7,730 nucleotides of DNA from NCBI GenBank assembly GCA_027022065.1, contig JALVZS010000153.1, positions 1 to 7,730 of the forward strand. The letters run 5' to 3'. The notes beneath the pieces are model-generated. The model saw only the letters and a program-made list of their open reading frames with translations. It had not been told where the DNA came from and did no database searches. Position numbers and translations under genes: made by a program. Below are positions 2,316 to 5,904 of the stretch, one piece after another. This stretch comes from a bacterium. Lineage in GTDB: Bacteria > Thermosulfidibacterota > Thermosulfidibacteria > Thermosulfidibacterales > Thermosulfidibacteraceae. Each line of letters begins with the position of its first letter. The stretch's first letter is position 1.

Positions 2316-2370
2316 ACGGCGATGGGGCCCGCCGTAAACGCCGCCCTTTTAGGGTGGCTGATGGCTCCTA
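2316..2370 (+). promoter_or_regulatory. Fluoride riboswitch aptamer (crcB motif)
   Basis: All elements of the fluoride aptamer are visible. P1 is ACGGC (2316-2320) paired with GCCGT (2331-2335), closing the loop GATGGGGCCC (2321-2330). The conserved AAAC (2336-2339) follows. P2 is an 8-bp stem, 2340-2347 with 2351-2358 (one G-U pair), with a 3-base loop. The conserved 3' segment TGATGGCTCCTA (2359-2370) comes next. The pseudoknot forms between GGGGCC (2324-2329) and GGCTCC (2363-2368), six pairs with one G-U wobble. From memory, the crystallised Thermotoga petrophila aptamer has the same layout and nearly the same conserved bases (GATGAGGCCC loop, AAAC, TGATGGCCTCTA tail). Known aptamers of this class bind fluoride with Mg2+ and turn expression on. 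It lies directly ahead of the toroid-protein/dynamin genes at 2392-4915, with no crcB/fluc or eriC gene in the window. Confidence 0.93.
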
Positions 2371-2397
2371 TCCCGTTGCAGGAGGTGGGATATGGAG
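2363..2397 (+). promoter_or_regulatory. Likely translational expression platform with strong Shine-Dalgarno
   Basis: The Shine-Dalgarno AGGAGG (2380-2385) sits 6 bases ahead of ATG 2392. The 3' pseudoknot strand of the aptamer can pair two other ways. CTCCT (2365-2369) can pair with AGGAG (2380-2384), hiding the Shine-Dalgarno. Alternatively CTCCTATCCC (2365-2374) can pair with GGGATA (2387-2392) plus GGAG (2394-2397) across one bulged T, which buries the start codon. Both exclude the pseudoknot, so fluoride binding would free the start region. No U-run follows any hairpin, which argues against a transcription terminator. The pairings are seen directly; the switching mechanism is inferred. 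Confidence 0.65.
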
Positions 2398-3177
2398 CTT
2401 TTAGCCACCCTAAATTATATCCTGGAGAGGAGATGCCCTTCGGGAGGTTATTGTTTCTACAGATTGGACGAGCCCAATGCAGAGGACACATACTACGCGT
2501 TAAAAACCCTTAAACTTTTGGGCATTGATCCTGGTAAAGATTCAAAGACTGTGTCCTTTCTTAAGAGCCTTAAAGATGAGAGTATAGACATCCTCTATTA
2601 CAAAAGCTTTTCCCTGGAGATGCTGGGGGAAAACTACAGGCCCTCTGCGGGCACTTTAAAAGCCCTGGAGAAGGCTCTGCTTTCTGCCAGCTCCTTTGTG
2701 GAAACCGCCAAGTTTCTACTTCATGCAAAAAGGTTGCTTATACTTTTCAAGCTAAGCGATGAAACACCTTCAGATGAGCTTTTGGAAATCATCGGAAAGA
2801 TGGGTATCCCTCGCTATCTTACGGAGGCTTACTACCTTGCGTGCTCAAGAAGTGTATTGGGATTGGATCTTGAGATGTTTAGGGACTTTCTCCTTCCCTG
2901 CCAGCGTCCCCAAGAGGGCTTCGTTGAGGCTCCGGACCTTGGTTTAAGGTTCCTTGAGCAGATATATGTGGGGCTTAAGTTCTGTAGACTTCTAGATGTA
3001 AGGCCCTTGTACCCGCAGGCTTGCTACGACTTTGTGGTTTCTTGTAGGAGAAAAAGCGGTGGTTTTGCTAGGAGTGATCTGGGCATAGCAACCATAAAAC
3101 ATACATATTTTGCGGTTTTTTCTGTAACTTACATAAAAAACAATAAACTTTTAACGGAGGTATGCCATGGAGGTTAG
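2392..3177 (+). CDS. Alpha/alpha-toroid protein of the prenyltransferase / terpene-cyclase fold, function unknown
   Basis: This 261-residue soluble protein has no signal peptide or membrane helix. Three segments match the repeat of protein prenyltransferase beta subunits and squalene-hopene cyclases (Cys, about 3-4 residues, G-G/E-[FY], then a helix with [HDQ]-x-Y-x-A/G). Repeat one is residues 15-44 (CPSGGY ... EDTYYALKTLKLLG). Repeat two is 170-201 (CQRPQEGF ... LEQIYVGLKFCRLL). Repeat three is 218-248 (CRRKSGGF ... KHTYFAVFSVTYI). The helical region 50-168 between them carries degenerate repeats. It is shorter than a full toroid enzyme (usually over 300 residues). The cyclase DxDD acid motif is absent and so is an obvious D-x-C zinc pair; only a zinc-ligand-like His237 is present. 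It may therefore be a binding or scaffold protein. The start is set by AGGAGG six bases upstream, under the fluoride riboswitch. It overlaps the GTPase gene by 11 bases. The fold call is likely; no function is known to me. Confidence 0.82.
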   Translation: MELLATLNYILERRCPSGGYCFYRLDEPNAEDTYYALKTLKLLGIDPGKDSKTVSFLKSLKDESIDILYYKSFSLEMLGENYRPSAGTLKALEKALLSASSFVETAKFLLHAKRLLILFKLSDETPSDELLEIIGKMGIPRYLTEAYYLACSRSVLGLDLEMFRDFLLPCQRPQEGFVEAPDLGLRFLEQIYVGLKFCRLLDVRPLYPQACYDFVVSCRRKSGGFARSDLGIATIKHTYFAVFSVTYIKNNKLLTEVCHGG

Positions 3178-4915
3178 CCAGGCGACCCGTATGGTGGAGG
3201 AAGGTCTCAGGGTTGCCTTTTCCTATGCAACAGAGCAGGAGAGGGAGCTTCTGCAGGATGTGGATAAAAAGCTTAAGGAAAATAAGTTTAACCTTGTGGT
3301 TTTGGGCCAGTTTAAAAGGGGAAAAACCACATTTGTGAACGCCTTGCTAGGAGAGAAGCTTCTTCCCTCTGCCGTTCTTCCTTTAACTTCAATAGTTACC
3401 GTTGTGGAATACGGAGTGGATAAGAAGGTGGAGGTGTATTTCCTAAACGGTGAAAAGAAGGAGATATCCCCTGATGAGATAAAGCTTTACGTGACGGAAA
3501 AGGAGAATCCCAAGAATGTGAAGCAGGTAAAGTATGTGAGGGTGTTTCATCCTGCCGAGATACTTAAAAAGGGGATAATCCTTGTAGACACCCCTGGTGT
3601 GGGCTCTGTTTACGAGAACAACACGGAGGTTACCTACGATTTCCTGCCCAGGGTGGATGCTGCCCTGTTTCTTCTGACCGTTGATCCTCCCCTTTCAAAG
3701 GAGGAGACGGAGTTTCTCAAAAATGTTGCTCCTCATGTGGCAAGACTTTTCTTCATTCTGAACAAGGCGGACTATATAAGCCCTGAGGATCTGGAGGATG
3801 TGCTTTCCTTCGTGAGGGACAACCTGAAGAACCTAACGGGGCAGGAGCACAAGATATACCCCATATCCGCCAAGATGGCCCTTGAGGGGAGAGTTACGGG
3901 AGATTCTCAGTTGGTTGAAAAAAGCGGGATTCTAGAGCTTGAGAGGGATCTGGAGGACTTTATCCTCAAGGAGAGGAGCCTTGTGGTGTTACGCTCCTCT
4001 GCCAACAAGGTGCTTTCTGTGCTTTCCACACATCTCTTCCAGGCGGATCTTGAGCTGAAGATGGCAACGACTCCCGTGGAGGAGCTTGAGAAGAAGATAG
4101 AGAGGTTCAGGCAGTTAAAGGAAAGCGTTCATCAGGAGGCCAGAGACAGCGAATTCCTCTTTAGGGGAGAGATTGAGTCGCTCATTAAGCTTGTAAACAT
4201 GGATGTGGAGAGGTTCCGTAAGCAGAAGGTTCCTCAGATATTTGAAAGGCTCATGGAGGTTTTTGAAAAGAACAAACACAGAAGCGCTCTGGAGCTTTCA
4301 AGGATACTGGATGATGCTATGAAGAAGCTTCTCGTGGAGGAACTGGATAGATTCGTTGAGGAGGAGAATGAGAAGGTGAACAAAGAATATGCCCGTATAG
4401 CCAGGAGGTTTTCGGATAAGATAAACTCCATAATAGATGAACTTTTGAAGCTTGCTGCAGATATCTTTGAGGTGAAGCTTGAGAGGTTCAAGGTGGAGGA
4501 GGAGATAACCCAGGAGTCTGAGCTGTGGTACAAGCTTGAGGATCCTCCTAGGCTGCTTGATGTGGCAGAGAGCATAGGGAAGGTGGTTTCTTATACATTC
4601 CTGCCCTCTGCTATAGTTCACAGGAAGATAAAGTCTGAGCTGAGTAAAAAGCTTCCAGAGAAGGTGGATATGAACTGTGGTAGAGTTAGGTCAGATTTTG
4701 TGGACAGGATAAACAAAAGCGCCATAGAGCTTCGCTGGGGGATGCAGGAGAAGATAAAAGAAACCTTGAAGTTTGTGGAAGAGGCTGTGGAAAGGGCGAT
4801 CTCCATGAGGGAGAAGAGCAAGGAAGAGGTGGACAAGTACATGGCTCAGATTACATCTAGAAAAAGAGAGCTGGAGGAGCATGTAAATAGGCTGAAGAAG
4901 ATACTGGCTGCATAA
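3167..4915 (+). CDS. Bacterial dynamin-like GTPase
   Basis: This 582-residue protein belongs to the dynamin superfamily (Dynamin_N). The GTPase domain (about 40-270) has the P-loop GQFKRGKTT (47-55), switch-I threonine within LPLTSIVT (71-78), G3 DTPG (141-144) and G4 NKAD (199-202), followed by YPISAK (231-236). Residues about 270-460 and 500-580 are charged heptad-like helices, as expected of the bundle and stalk that form long coiled coils. Between them, residues about 463-486 (LLDVAESIGKVV, then SYTFLPSAIV) are the only extended non-polar stretch and could be the membrane-contacting tip. Dynamin-like proteins bind and reshape or fuse membranes using GTP. GGAGG (3156-3160) precedes the ATG by six bases. 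The start lies inside the end of the toroid-protein gene, so the two are translationally coupled and probably partners. The family is certain; the cellular task is unknown. Confidence 0.93.
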   Translation: MEVSQATRMVEEGLRVAFSYATEQERELLQDVDKKLKENKFNLVVLGQFKRGKTTFVNALLGEKLLPSAVLPLTSIVTVVEYGVDKKVEVYFLNGEKKEISPDEIKLYVTEKENPKNVKQVKYVRVFHPAEILKKGIILVDTPGVGSVYENNTEVTYDFLPRVDAALFLLTVDPPLSKEETEFLKNVAPHVARLFFILNKADYISPEDLEDVLSFVRDNLKNLTGQEHKIYPISAKMALEGRVTGDSQLVEKSGILELERDLEDFILKERSLVVLRSSANKVLSVLSTHLFQADLELKMATTPVEELEKKIERFRQLKESVHQEARDSEFLFRGEIESLIKLVNMDVERFRKQKVPQIFERLMEVFEKNKHRSALELSRILDDAMKKLLVEELDRFVEEENEKVNKEYARIARRFSDKINSIIDELLKLAADIFEVKLERFKVEEEITQESELWYKLEDPPRLLDVAESIGKVVSYTFLPSAIVHRKIKSELSKKLPEKVDMNCGRVRSDFVDRINKSAIELRWGMQEKIKETLKFVEEAVERAISMREKSKEEVDKYMAQITSRKRELEEHVNRLKKILAA

Positions 4916-4923
4916 ATTCTGAT

Positions 4924-5904
4924 ATGGGAAAGCCTTGCCTTATGCTTGCTCCCATGGCGGATCTTACCCATCCCGCCTTTAGGGAGCTTGTGGCTTCTTT
5001 TGGCGGGTGTGATCTTTTCTTTACCGAGATGATCAACATAAACTACCTAAAGTCTACCAATCCCCTTAAGGATCCCTATGTGGTTCCTGCAGAAAGAGAC
5101 AGACCTCTTGTTGCTCAACTTGTGGGAGGTAAGCCAGAGGACTTTGAGCTTGCGGTGGAAAGGCTTGAGGCTACAGGCTTTTTCTCCGGGTACAACTTCA
5201 ATCTGGGCTGCACCAAGGGGAAGTTTCAGAGATACGGATGGGGAGCCTCTCTTTTAGAAAAGCCGGAGCTTATCAGGGATATACTTAAGGCTATGAGGAG
5301 GGCTACCGATAAGCCCTTGAGTGTAAAGATGAGGATACCAAAGGGCCGCAATAAAGATAGGCTTCTCAGACTTCTTGAGGTTTTTGAAAGTTTGGGGGTG
5401 GACTTTGTGGTTCTTCACCCCCGCACGCCAGAGGAGGGATTCAGCAGGCCCGCCAGGTGGGAGGAAATAGCCTTTGCCGTGGAAGCATCAAGCCTGAAGA
5501 TAGTGGCCAACGGCGATGTGTTTTCTCCCGAGGATGCGGCCAAAGTTATAGATTCCACGGGAGCTTGGGGGATTATGGTGGGAAGGGCCGCCCTCATAAG
5601 GCCTTGGATACTAAGGGATATAGGGTCTTATCTGGAAAAGGGAGAGGTAGATAAGCCTCCCGATGCCATTTGTGTTCTGGAGGCACTTGCAGGGTATATA
5701 AAGCGGTTTCTACCTGAAAGATGGCATATTAAAAGATTGAAGCTGTTTTTAAGGTGGTTTGTGCAGAATTACACCAACGCCCTTTGGATTTTGAGGAGGT
5801 TAAAGGGAAGATCGCTGGAAGAATTACTGGAAGTAAGTAAAAGAGAGCTTAAAGGGCTGAAGATGAGAGGATACCCTGTCAATCCCTTTCTATTTGTGTG
5901 CTAA
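4924..5904 (+). CDS. dus: tRNA-dihydrouridine synthase
   Basis: This 326-residue FMN enzyme reduces uridine to dihydrouridine in the D-loop region of tRNA. TIM-barrel signatures appear in order: MLAPMADLTHPAFR (7-20), FTEM (33-36), LVAQLVGGKPEDF (62-74), the catalytic loop NFNLGCTKGK (91-100) with Cys96 as probable proton donor, SVKMR (133-137, Lys135), LHPRT (164-168, His/Arg for FMN/substrate), IVANGDV (193-199) and MVGRAALIRPWI (218-229). The C-terminal helical tRNA-binding domain follows. One oddity is that the usual GCP after the catalytic loop is GCT here. It follows the dynamin gene by 8 bases with no clear Shine-Dalgarno, so it is probably read through from that transcript and may come under the same riboswitch transcriptionally. 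An internal ATG at 4942 is an alternative start. The subfamily (DusA/B/C type) is not resolved. Confidence 0.93.
   Translation: MGKPCLMLAPMADLTHPAFRELVASFGGCDLFFTEMININYLKSTNPLKDPYVVPAERDRPLVAQLVGGKPEDFELAVERLEATGFFSGYNFNLGCTKGKFQRYGWGASLLEKPELIRDILKAMRRATDKPLSVKMRIPKGRNKDRLLRLLEVFESLGVDFVVLHPRTPEEGFSRPARWEEIAFAVEASSLKIVANGDVFSPEDAAKVIDSTGAWGIMVGRAALIRPWILRDIGSYLEKGEVDKPPDAICVLEALAGYIKRFLPERWHIKRLKLFLRWFVQNYTNALWILRRLKGRSLEELLEVSKRELKGLKMRGYPVNPFLFVC

Follow-up and report, generated by a model that had tools for sequence, protein, structure and literature searches.

The DNA analysed here (the window, 7,730 nt in length) comes from a member of the phylum Thermosulfidibacterota and carries on its forward strand a fluoride riboswitch aptamer (RF01734, positions 2309–2377) followed by three genes. 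The first encodes an alpha/alpha-toroid, prenyltransferase-beta-like protein of 261 aa (2392–3177; PF00432, E 9.1e-9), the second a dynamin-like GTPase of 582 aa (3167–4915; PF00350, E 2.1e-28) and the third a tRNA-dihydrouridine synthase, dus (4924–5904; PF01207, E 3.1e-54). A preliminary description had placed the switch in front of a toroid protein and a dynamin-like GTPase, neither of them known to handle fluoride; the Pfam assignments agree on both counts, Prenyltrans and Dynamin_N not being known fluoride-response families. The dynamin start (3167) overlaps the toroid stop (3177), and the dynamin-like protein is likely to be translated by coupling to the toroid gene, while dus is probably co-transcribed with both. 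Further upstream, a gene at 1383–2270, predicted to encode a secreted protein with a weak likeness to periplasmic binding proteins, overlaps a preceding SPOR-domain gene. Between the preceding gene and the switch lies a weak terminator-like hairpin with a T-run (2265–2288, a consensus match only), together with a tentative promoter-like pair, TTGAAA-17-TAACAG (2274–2302), that has 8 of 12 matches, falls below the scan threshold and ends 6 nt upstream of the start of the aptamer model. Similar -35/-10-like pairs are found upstream of most other copies of the riboswitch described below.

The window RNA matches RF01734 over the whole model (1–64 of 64) with a cmscan score of 48.3 bits (E 3e-11) against a gathering cut-off of 34 bits, so that the covariance model bears out the identification of a fluoride riboswitch. 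The riboswitch has no second copy in the window's genome, whose draft assembly (88% complete) spans 1.57 Mb. Its parts and their coordinates likewise agree with those first described: a P1 hairpin (2318–2333, with 2318–2321 pairing to 2330–2333), a P2 hairpin, GCCGCCCU-UUU-AGGGUGGC (2340–2358, with 2340–2347 pairing to 2351–2358), and a pseudoknot of six pairs, one of them G-U, formed between the P1 loop (GGGGCC, 2324–2329) and a 3′ strand (GGCUCC, 2363–2368). The core, comprising GGCGATG and GGCTGATG, is unchanged in all 11 copies that we aligned. The aptamer consensus, P1, P2, the pseudoknot, the core and the predicted ON logic are all common to the fluoride riboswitch class (crcB motif) and to the window RNA, which is an ordinary member of that class and, as such, would be expected to bind fluoride.

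While the preliminary description was correct about the aptamer, it had missed the expression platform. Folding of positions 2309–2425 gave a minimum energy of -56.8 kcal/mol (z -4.83); 200 shuffled sequences averaged -38.1, and none of them was as stable. The dominant element of this fold is an anti-aptamer hairpin at 2348–2414, for which the relatives have a counterpart helix. Since the hairpin takes up both the P2 3′ strand and the 3′ pseudoknot strand, it and the aptamer are mutually exclusive. It encloses the Shine-Dalgarno sequence AGGAGG (2380–2385), and the AUG (2392–2394) is paired within it. A consensus scan of the window detected no terminator-like site 3′ of the aptamer; a transcription-terminator platform was therefore rejected, and control is probably translational, with the switch turning expression ON. 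Most of the window's Shine-Dalgarno sequence is within the loop of the hairpin, with an unpaired probability of 0.75, and the AUG is better buried (0.35), so that repression there would depend chiefly on the pairing of the AUG. When the aptamer was imposed on the fold, AUG exposure reached only 0.47 rather than full release, in a nested model that cannot score the pseudoknot; among the 11 copies the predicted exposure rose in nine and fell in two (G003 and G008). The energy model is therefore better evidence that the platform exists than of how strongly it switches. A mir-135 match on the opposite strand (2346–2416) fell below the Rfam cut-off and was discarded as a chance match caused by the sequestering hairpin.

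We then considered the riboswitch in nine draft genomes of the phylum, labelled G000 (the window's genome) to G008. RF01734 was above cut-off in every one of them, giving 11 copies in total with scores of 40.8–59.1 bits. In an alignment of these copies, P1 is paired in 11 of 11 (100%), the pseudoknot is paired in 66 of 66 cells (100%) with both-sided changes at three of its six pairs, and P2 is 82% paired; five pairs in these helices show both-sided changes. For the sequestor, in which the 3′ pseudoknot strand pairs instead with the ribosome-binding region, 91.7% of cells are paired and three pairs are compensated. Slid controls for the pseudoknot and sequestor helices were 34–61% paired, and those for the sequestor alone 40–61%. 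As judged from this alignment, one strand has changed in sequence and yet remains able to pair with either of two partners, as a switch would need and as would not be expected of a relic.

All 11 copies lead into a gene for a dynamin-like GTPase, a toroid protein or an inorganic pyrophosphatase. The toroid gene lies directly behind the switch in G000, G001, G002 and G006; the dynamin gene does so in G003, G004, G005, G007 and G008 and behind a second switch, located between the two genes, in G002; and the pyrophosphatase gene follows the switch at a second locus in G005. The gene order varies, being toroid–dynamin in G000 and dynamin–toroid in G003, G004, G005 and G008, and in each block the switch precedes whichever gene comes first. 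In G000, G003, G004 and G008 the first gene runs a few bases into the second, which suggests translational coupling, and in G002 the two are separate, each with its own switch. One switch per overlapping block and two switches in G002 would fit translational control. G006, a genome that is 96% complete, has a toroid gene with a switch and no dynamin gene; the pair is therefore not obligate. Dynamin 5′ ends without a switch were seen only in G001 (C22) and G007 (C148), where both are cut by contig ends. Thus, in all nine genomes the riboswitch still precedes at least one of the two genes, and the aptamer is present wherever the 5′ region of a dynamin or toroid block is visible. The survey of relatives called for in the preliminary description gave no case of an aptamer lost while the genes are kept. 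The association of the riboswitch with these genes is more than a local accident. No dus-like gene was seen in the relatives' operons, and dus is outside the conserved module. In G004 the toroid gene (L032 7645–8481, on C37) is broken by a TAA stop, which may mark a pseudogene or reflect an error in the assembly.

With respect to the proteins themselves, the toroid profile matches the beta subunit of RabGGTase (E 2.8e-13), and the protein shares alpha/alpha-toroid repeats with protein prenyltransferase beta subunits (RabGGTase beta, FTase beta) and squalene-hopene cyclases. By inspection of the alignment of its relatives, which are 21–41% identical, the Asp-Cys-His zinc ligands of the prenyltransferase active site appear unconserved (Asp is replaced by Glu, Cys by Ile or Gln and His mostly by Thr), and for this reason we do not call the toroid a prenyltransferase. 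It also differs from the prenyltransferase beta subunits in being bacterial and 261 aa long, with no alpha-subunit partner seen. An AF2 model (pLDDT 47) was too poor for a fold search. The dynamin-like GTPase is strongly conserved, its relatives being 55–71% identical to the window's protein. Its G1–G4 motifs are intact, with GQFKRGKTT, DTPG and NKxD conserved in the alignment, and its profile matches the Nostoc BDLP structure 2j68 (E 1.6e-31) across the GTPase part only. As in other bacterial dynamin-like proteins (Nostoc BDLP 2j68/2j69, Bacillus DynA, the Campylobacter pair 5owv and IniA), Dynamin_N is followed by a long, predicted-helical region; the similarity is confined to the GTPase part, and the window's gene differs in being under predicted fluoride-riboswitch control. 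A single-sequence AlphaFold model (pLDDT 38) was too poor for a fold search or for reading a membrane-binding paddle and trunk architecture. A search of plasmids found dynamins related in the GTPase domain only, none of them covering 80% of the query, and no homologues were found in the viral contigs searched.

Other genes in these genomes bear on the fluoride context. Inorganic pyrophosphatase, an enzyme inhibited by fluoride, is a classic fluoride-riboswitch gene (PMC11139923). It is absent from the window's own operon, but it lies 3′ of the dynamin and toroid genes in G004, G005 and G007. These operons resemble known riboswitch-associated pyrophosphatase operons in holding the enzyme and differ from them in that dynamin and toroid genes precede it, a HEAT-repeat gene follows it and an exporter is absent. 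At the second switch of G005 (L034 1260–1400, on C174), a 45-codon open frame separates the switch from the pyrophosphatase gene and may encode a leader peptide or be what is left of a gene since lost. The HEAT-repeat gene and a gene of ~138 aa of unknown family, which come after the pyrophosphatase in the switch-led operons of a single bacterial family (L032 8985–10265, L033 4632–5912 and L037 6979–8502), are further candidates for fluoride genes. CrcB/Fluc was found in only one of the nine genomes (G001:C110:2369–2707), and no fluoride riboswitch was detected near it. CLC proteins occur in eight of the nine, with no switch near any CLC gene. The three representatives compared scored 114–157 bits against ClcA structures and 35–53 bits against the CLC-F structure; being far nearer to chloride-type ClcA, they were rejected as hidden CLC-F exporters. 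The phylum is mostly without Fluc and no CLC-F is present among the CLC types compared, absences that are provisional because the draft genomes are incomplete; no known fluoride exporter gene lies behind any of the 11 copies. A full-length reverse gyrase is encoded in the window's genome (G000:C147:3469–6756), in line with the earlier guess of a thermophile, and likewise in G001 and G002, which belong to the same family; none was above cut-off in the other six genomes. Judged by this enzyme, the window's family is probably hyperthermophilic.

We conclude that the window very probably holds a real fluoride riboswitch through which fluoride switches ON the translation of a conserved dynamin–toroid pair. 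The aptamer, the alternative pairing and the gene association can each be read from the sequences, and the regulatory claim has good computational support; the ON direction would follow from membership of the class. In the absence of fluoride, the aptamer 3′ strand (2363–2368 and flanks) would pair downstream and hide the ribosome-binding region and the AUG. Fluoride, as a Mg–F complex, would bind the nascent aptamer, and strand 2363–2368 would be taken into the pseudoknot. With the strand held there the hairpin could not form and the toroid gene would be translated, the overlapping dynamin gene following, probably, by coupling. What the induced proteins do is a further step of inference, and most likely they would either protect or repair membranes or make good a GTPase that fluoride inhibits. 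Under stress, bacterial DynA is known to take part in membrane surveillance (PMC8844932), and fluoride enters cells as HF (PMC11139923), on which grounds we tentatively favor a membrane-acting fluoride-tolerance module. The dynamin-like GTPase may guard or remodel membranes under the stress of HF entry. Its lipid- or isoprenoid-binding partner may be the toroid, a protein most closely related, among solved structures, to the beta subunits of protein prenyltransferases.

The main rival to a membrane module is that fluoride inhibits the dynamin-like GTPase itself and that the switch only raises the amount of this enzyme, the proteins then being victims rather than protectors. MgFx or AlFx with GDP mimics the transition state, and fluoride-metal trapping of GTPases is established. 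The intact GTPase motifs and strong conservation of the dynamin would suit such a target, as would the presence in the same operon, in three genomes, of pyrophosphatase, a fluoride-inhibited enzyme (PMC11139923). The same logic has been proposed for enolase and pyrophosphatase. We nevertheless consider target replacement rather unlikely, given that the toroid has no known fluoride-sensitive chemistry, that the toroid of G006 keeps its switch where there is no dynamin and that many essential GTPases lack such switches. Alternatively, the aptamer may sense fluoride as a proxy for the entry of HF and acid at vents while the genes serve general envelope or acid stress. Na+/H+ antiporters are common behind fluoride riboswitches, acidification has been linked to the entry of fluoride (PMC11139923), and reverse gyrase indicates a hyperthermophile as the source of the window's genome; however, retention alongside pyrophosphatase points specifically to fluoride, and a role in general stress appears distinctly unlikely. 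A non-functional aptamer inherited with the locus is most improbable, for although a single ancestral linkage could account for part of the one-phylum pattern, compensatory changes have accumulated in both alternative helices across deep divergence (toroids 21–41% identical) and the switch leads the first gene in either order and is duplicated in G002. Equally remote is a class variant with a different ligand, which might explain why no known exporter follows any copy but which is at odds with an invariant core, with scores of 40.8 bits or more and with a known member of the fluoride regulon, pyrophosphatase (PMC11139923), behind one of the switches.

Returning to the fluoride-responsive dynamin–toroid pair, the window switch departs from the usual RF01734 arrangement in two respects: the genes it governs encode a dynamin-like GTPase and a toroid protein, not CrcB/Fluc or CLC-F, and its platform is a start-codon-sequestering hairpin, with no intrinsic terminator after the aptamer. 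An early survey listed mutS and genes for K+ or Cl- transport and formate hydrogen lyase behind the motif (PMC2864571). In the open literature searched, we found no paper joining a fluoride riboswitch with dynamin or prenyltransferase. The regulon of dynamin and toroid appears to be new, a novelty that is provisional because the search did not take in the gene list of the 2012 discovery paper and the survey covered one phylum. Both proteins are strong candidates for a novel type of fluoride response. It is conceivable, if short of probable, that fluoride tolerance in the phylum rests on a hitherto unknown membrane module of dynamin and toroid, often with pyrophosphatase, whose translation is induced by fluoride. 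Most members of the phylum have no recognisable exporter, raising the question of how fluoride would be survived without a known export route. A bacterial dynamin-like protein gains a candidate chemical cue and, as fluoride riboswitches mark genes used against fluoride, the association offers two testable new families of fluoride-response genes.
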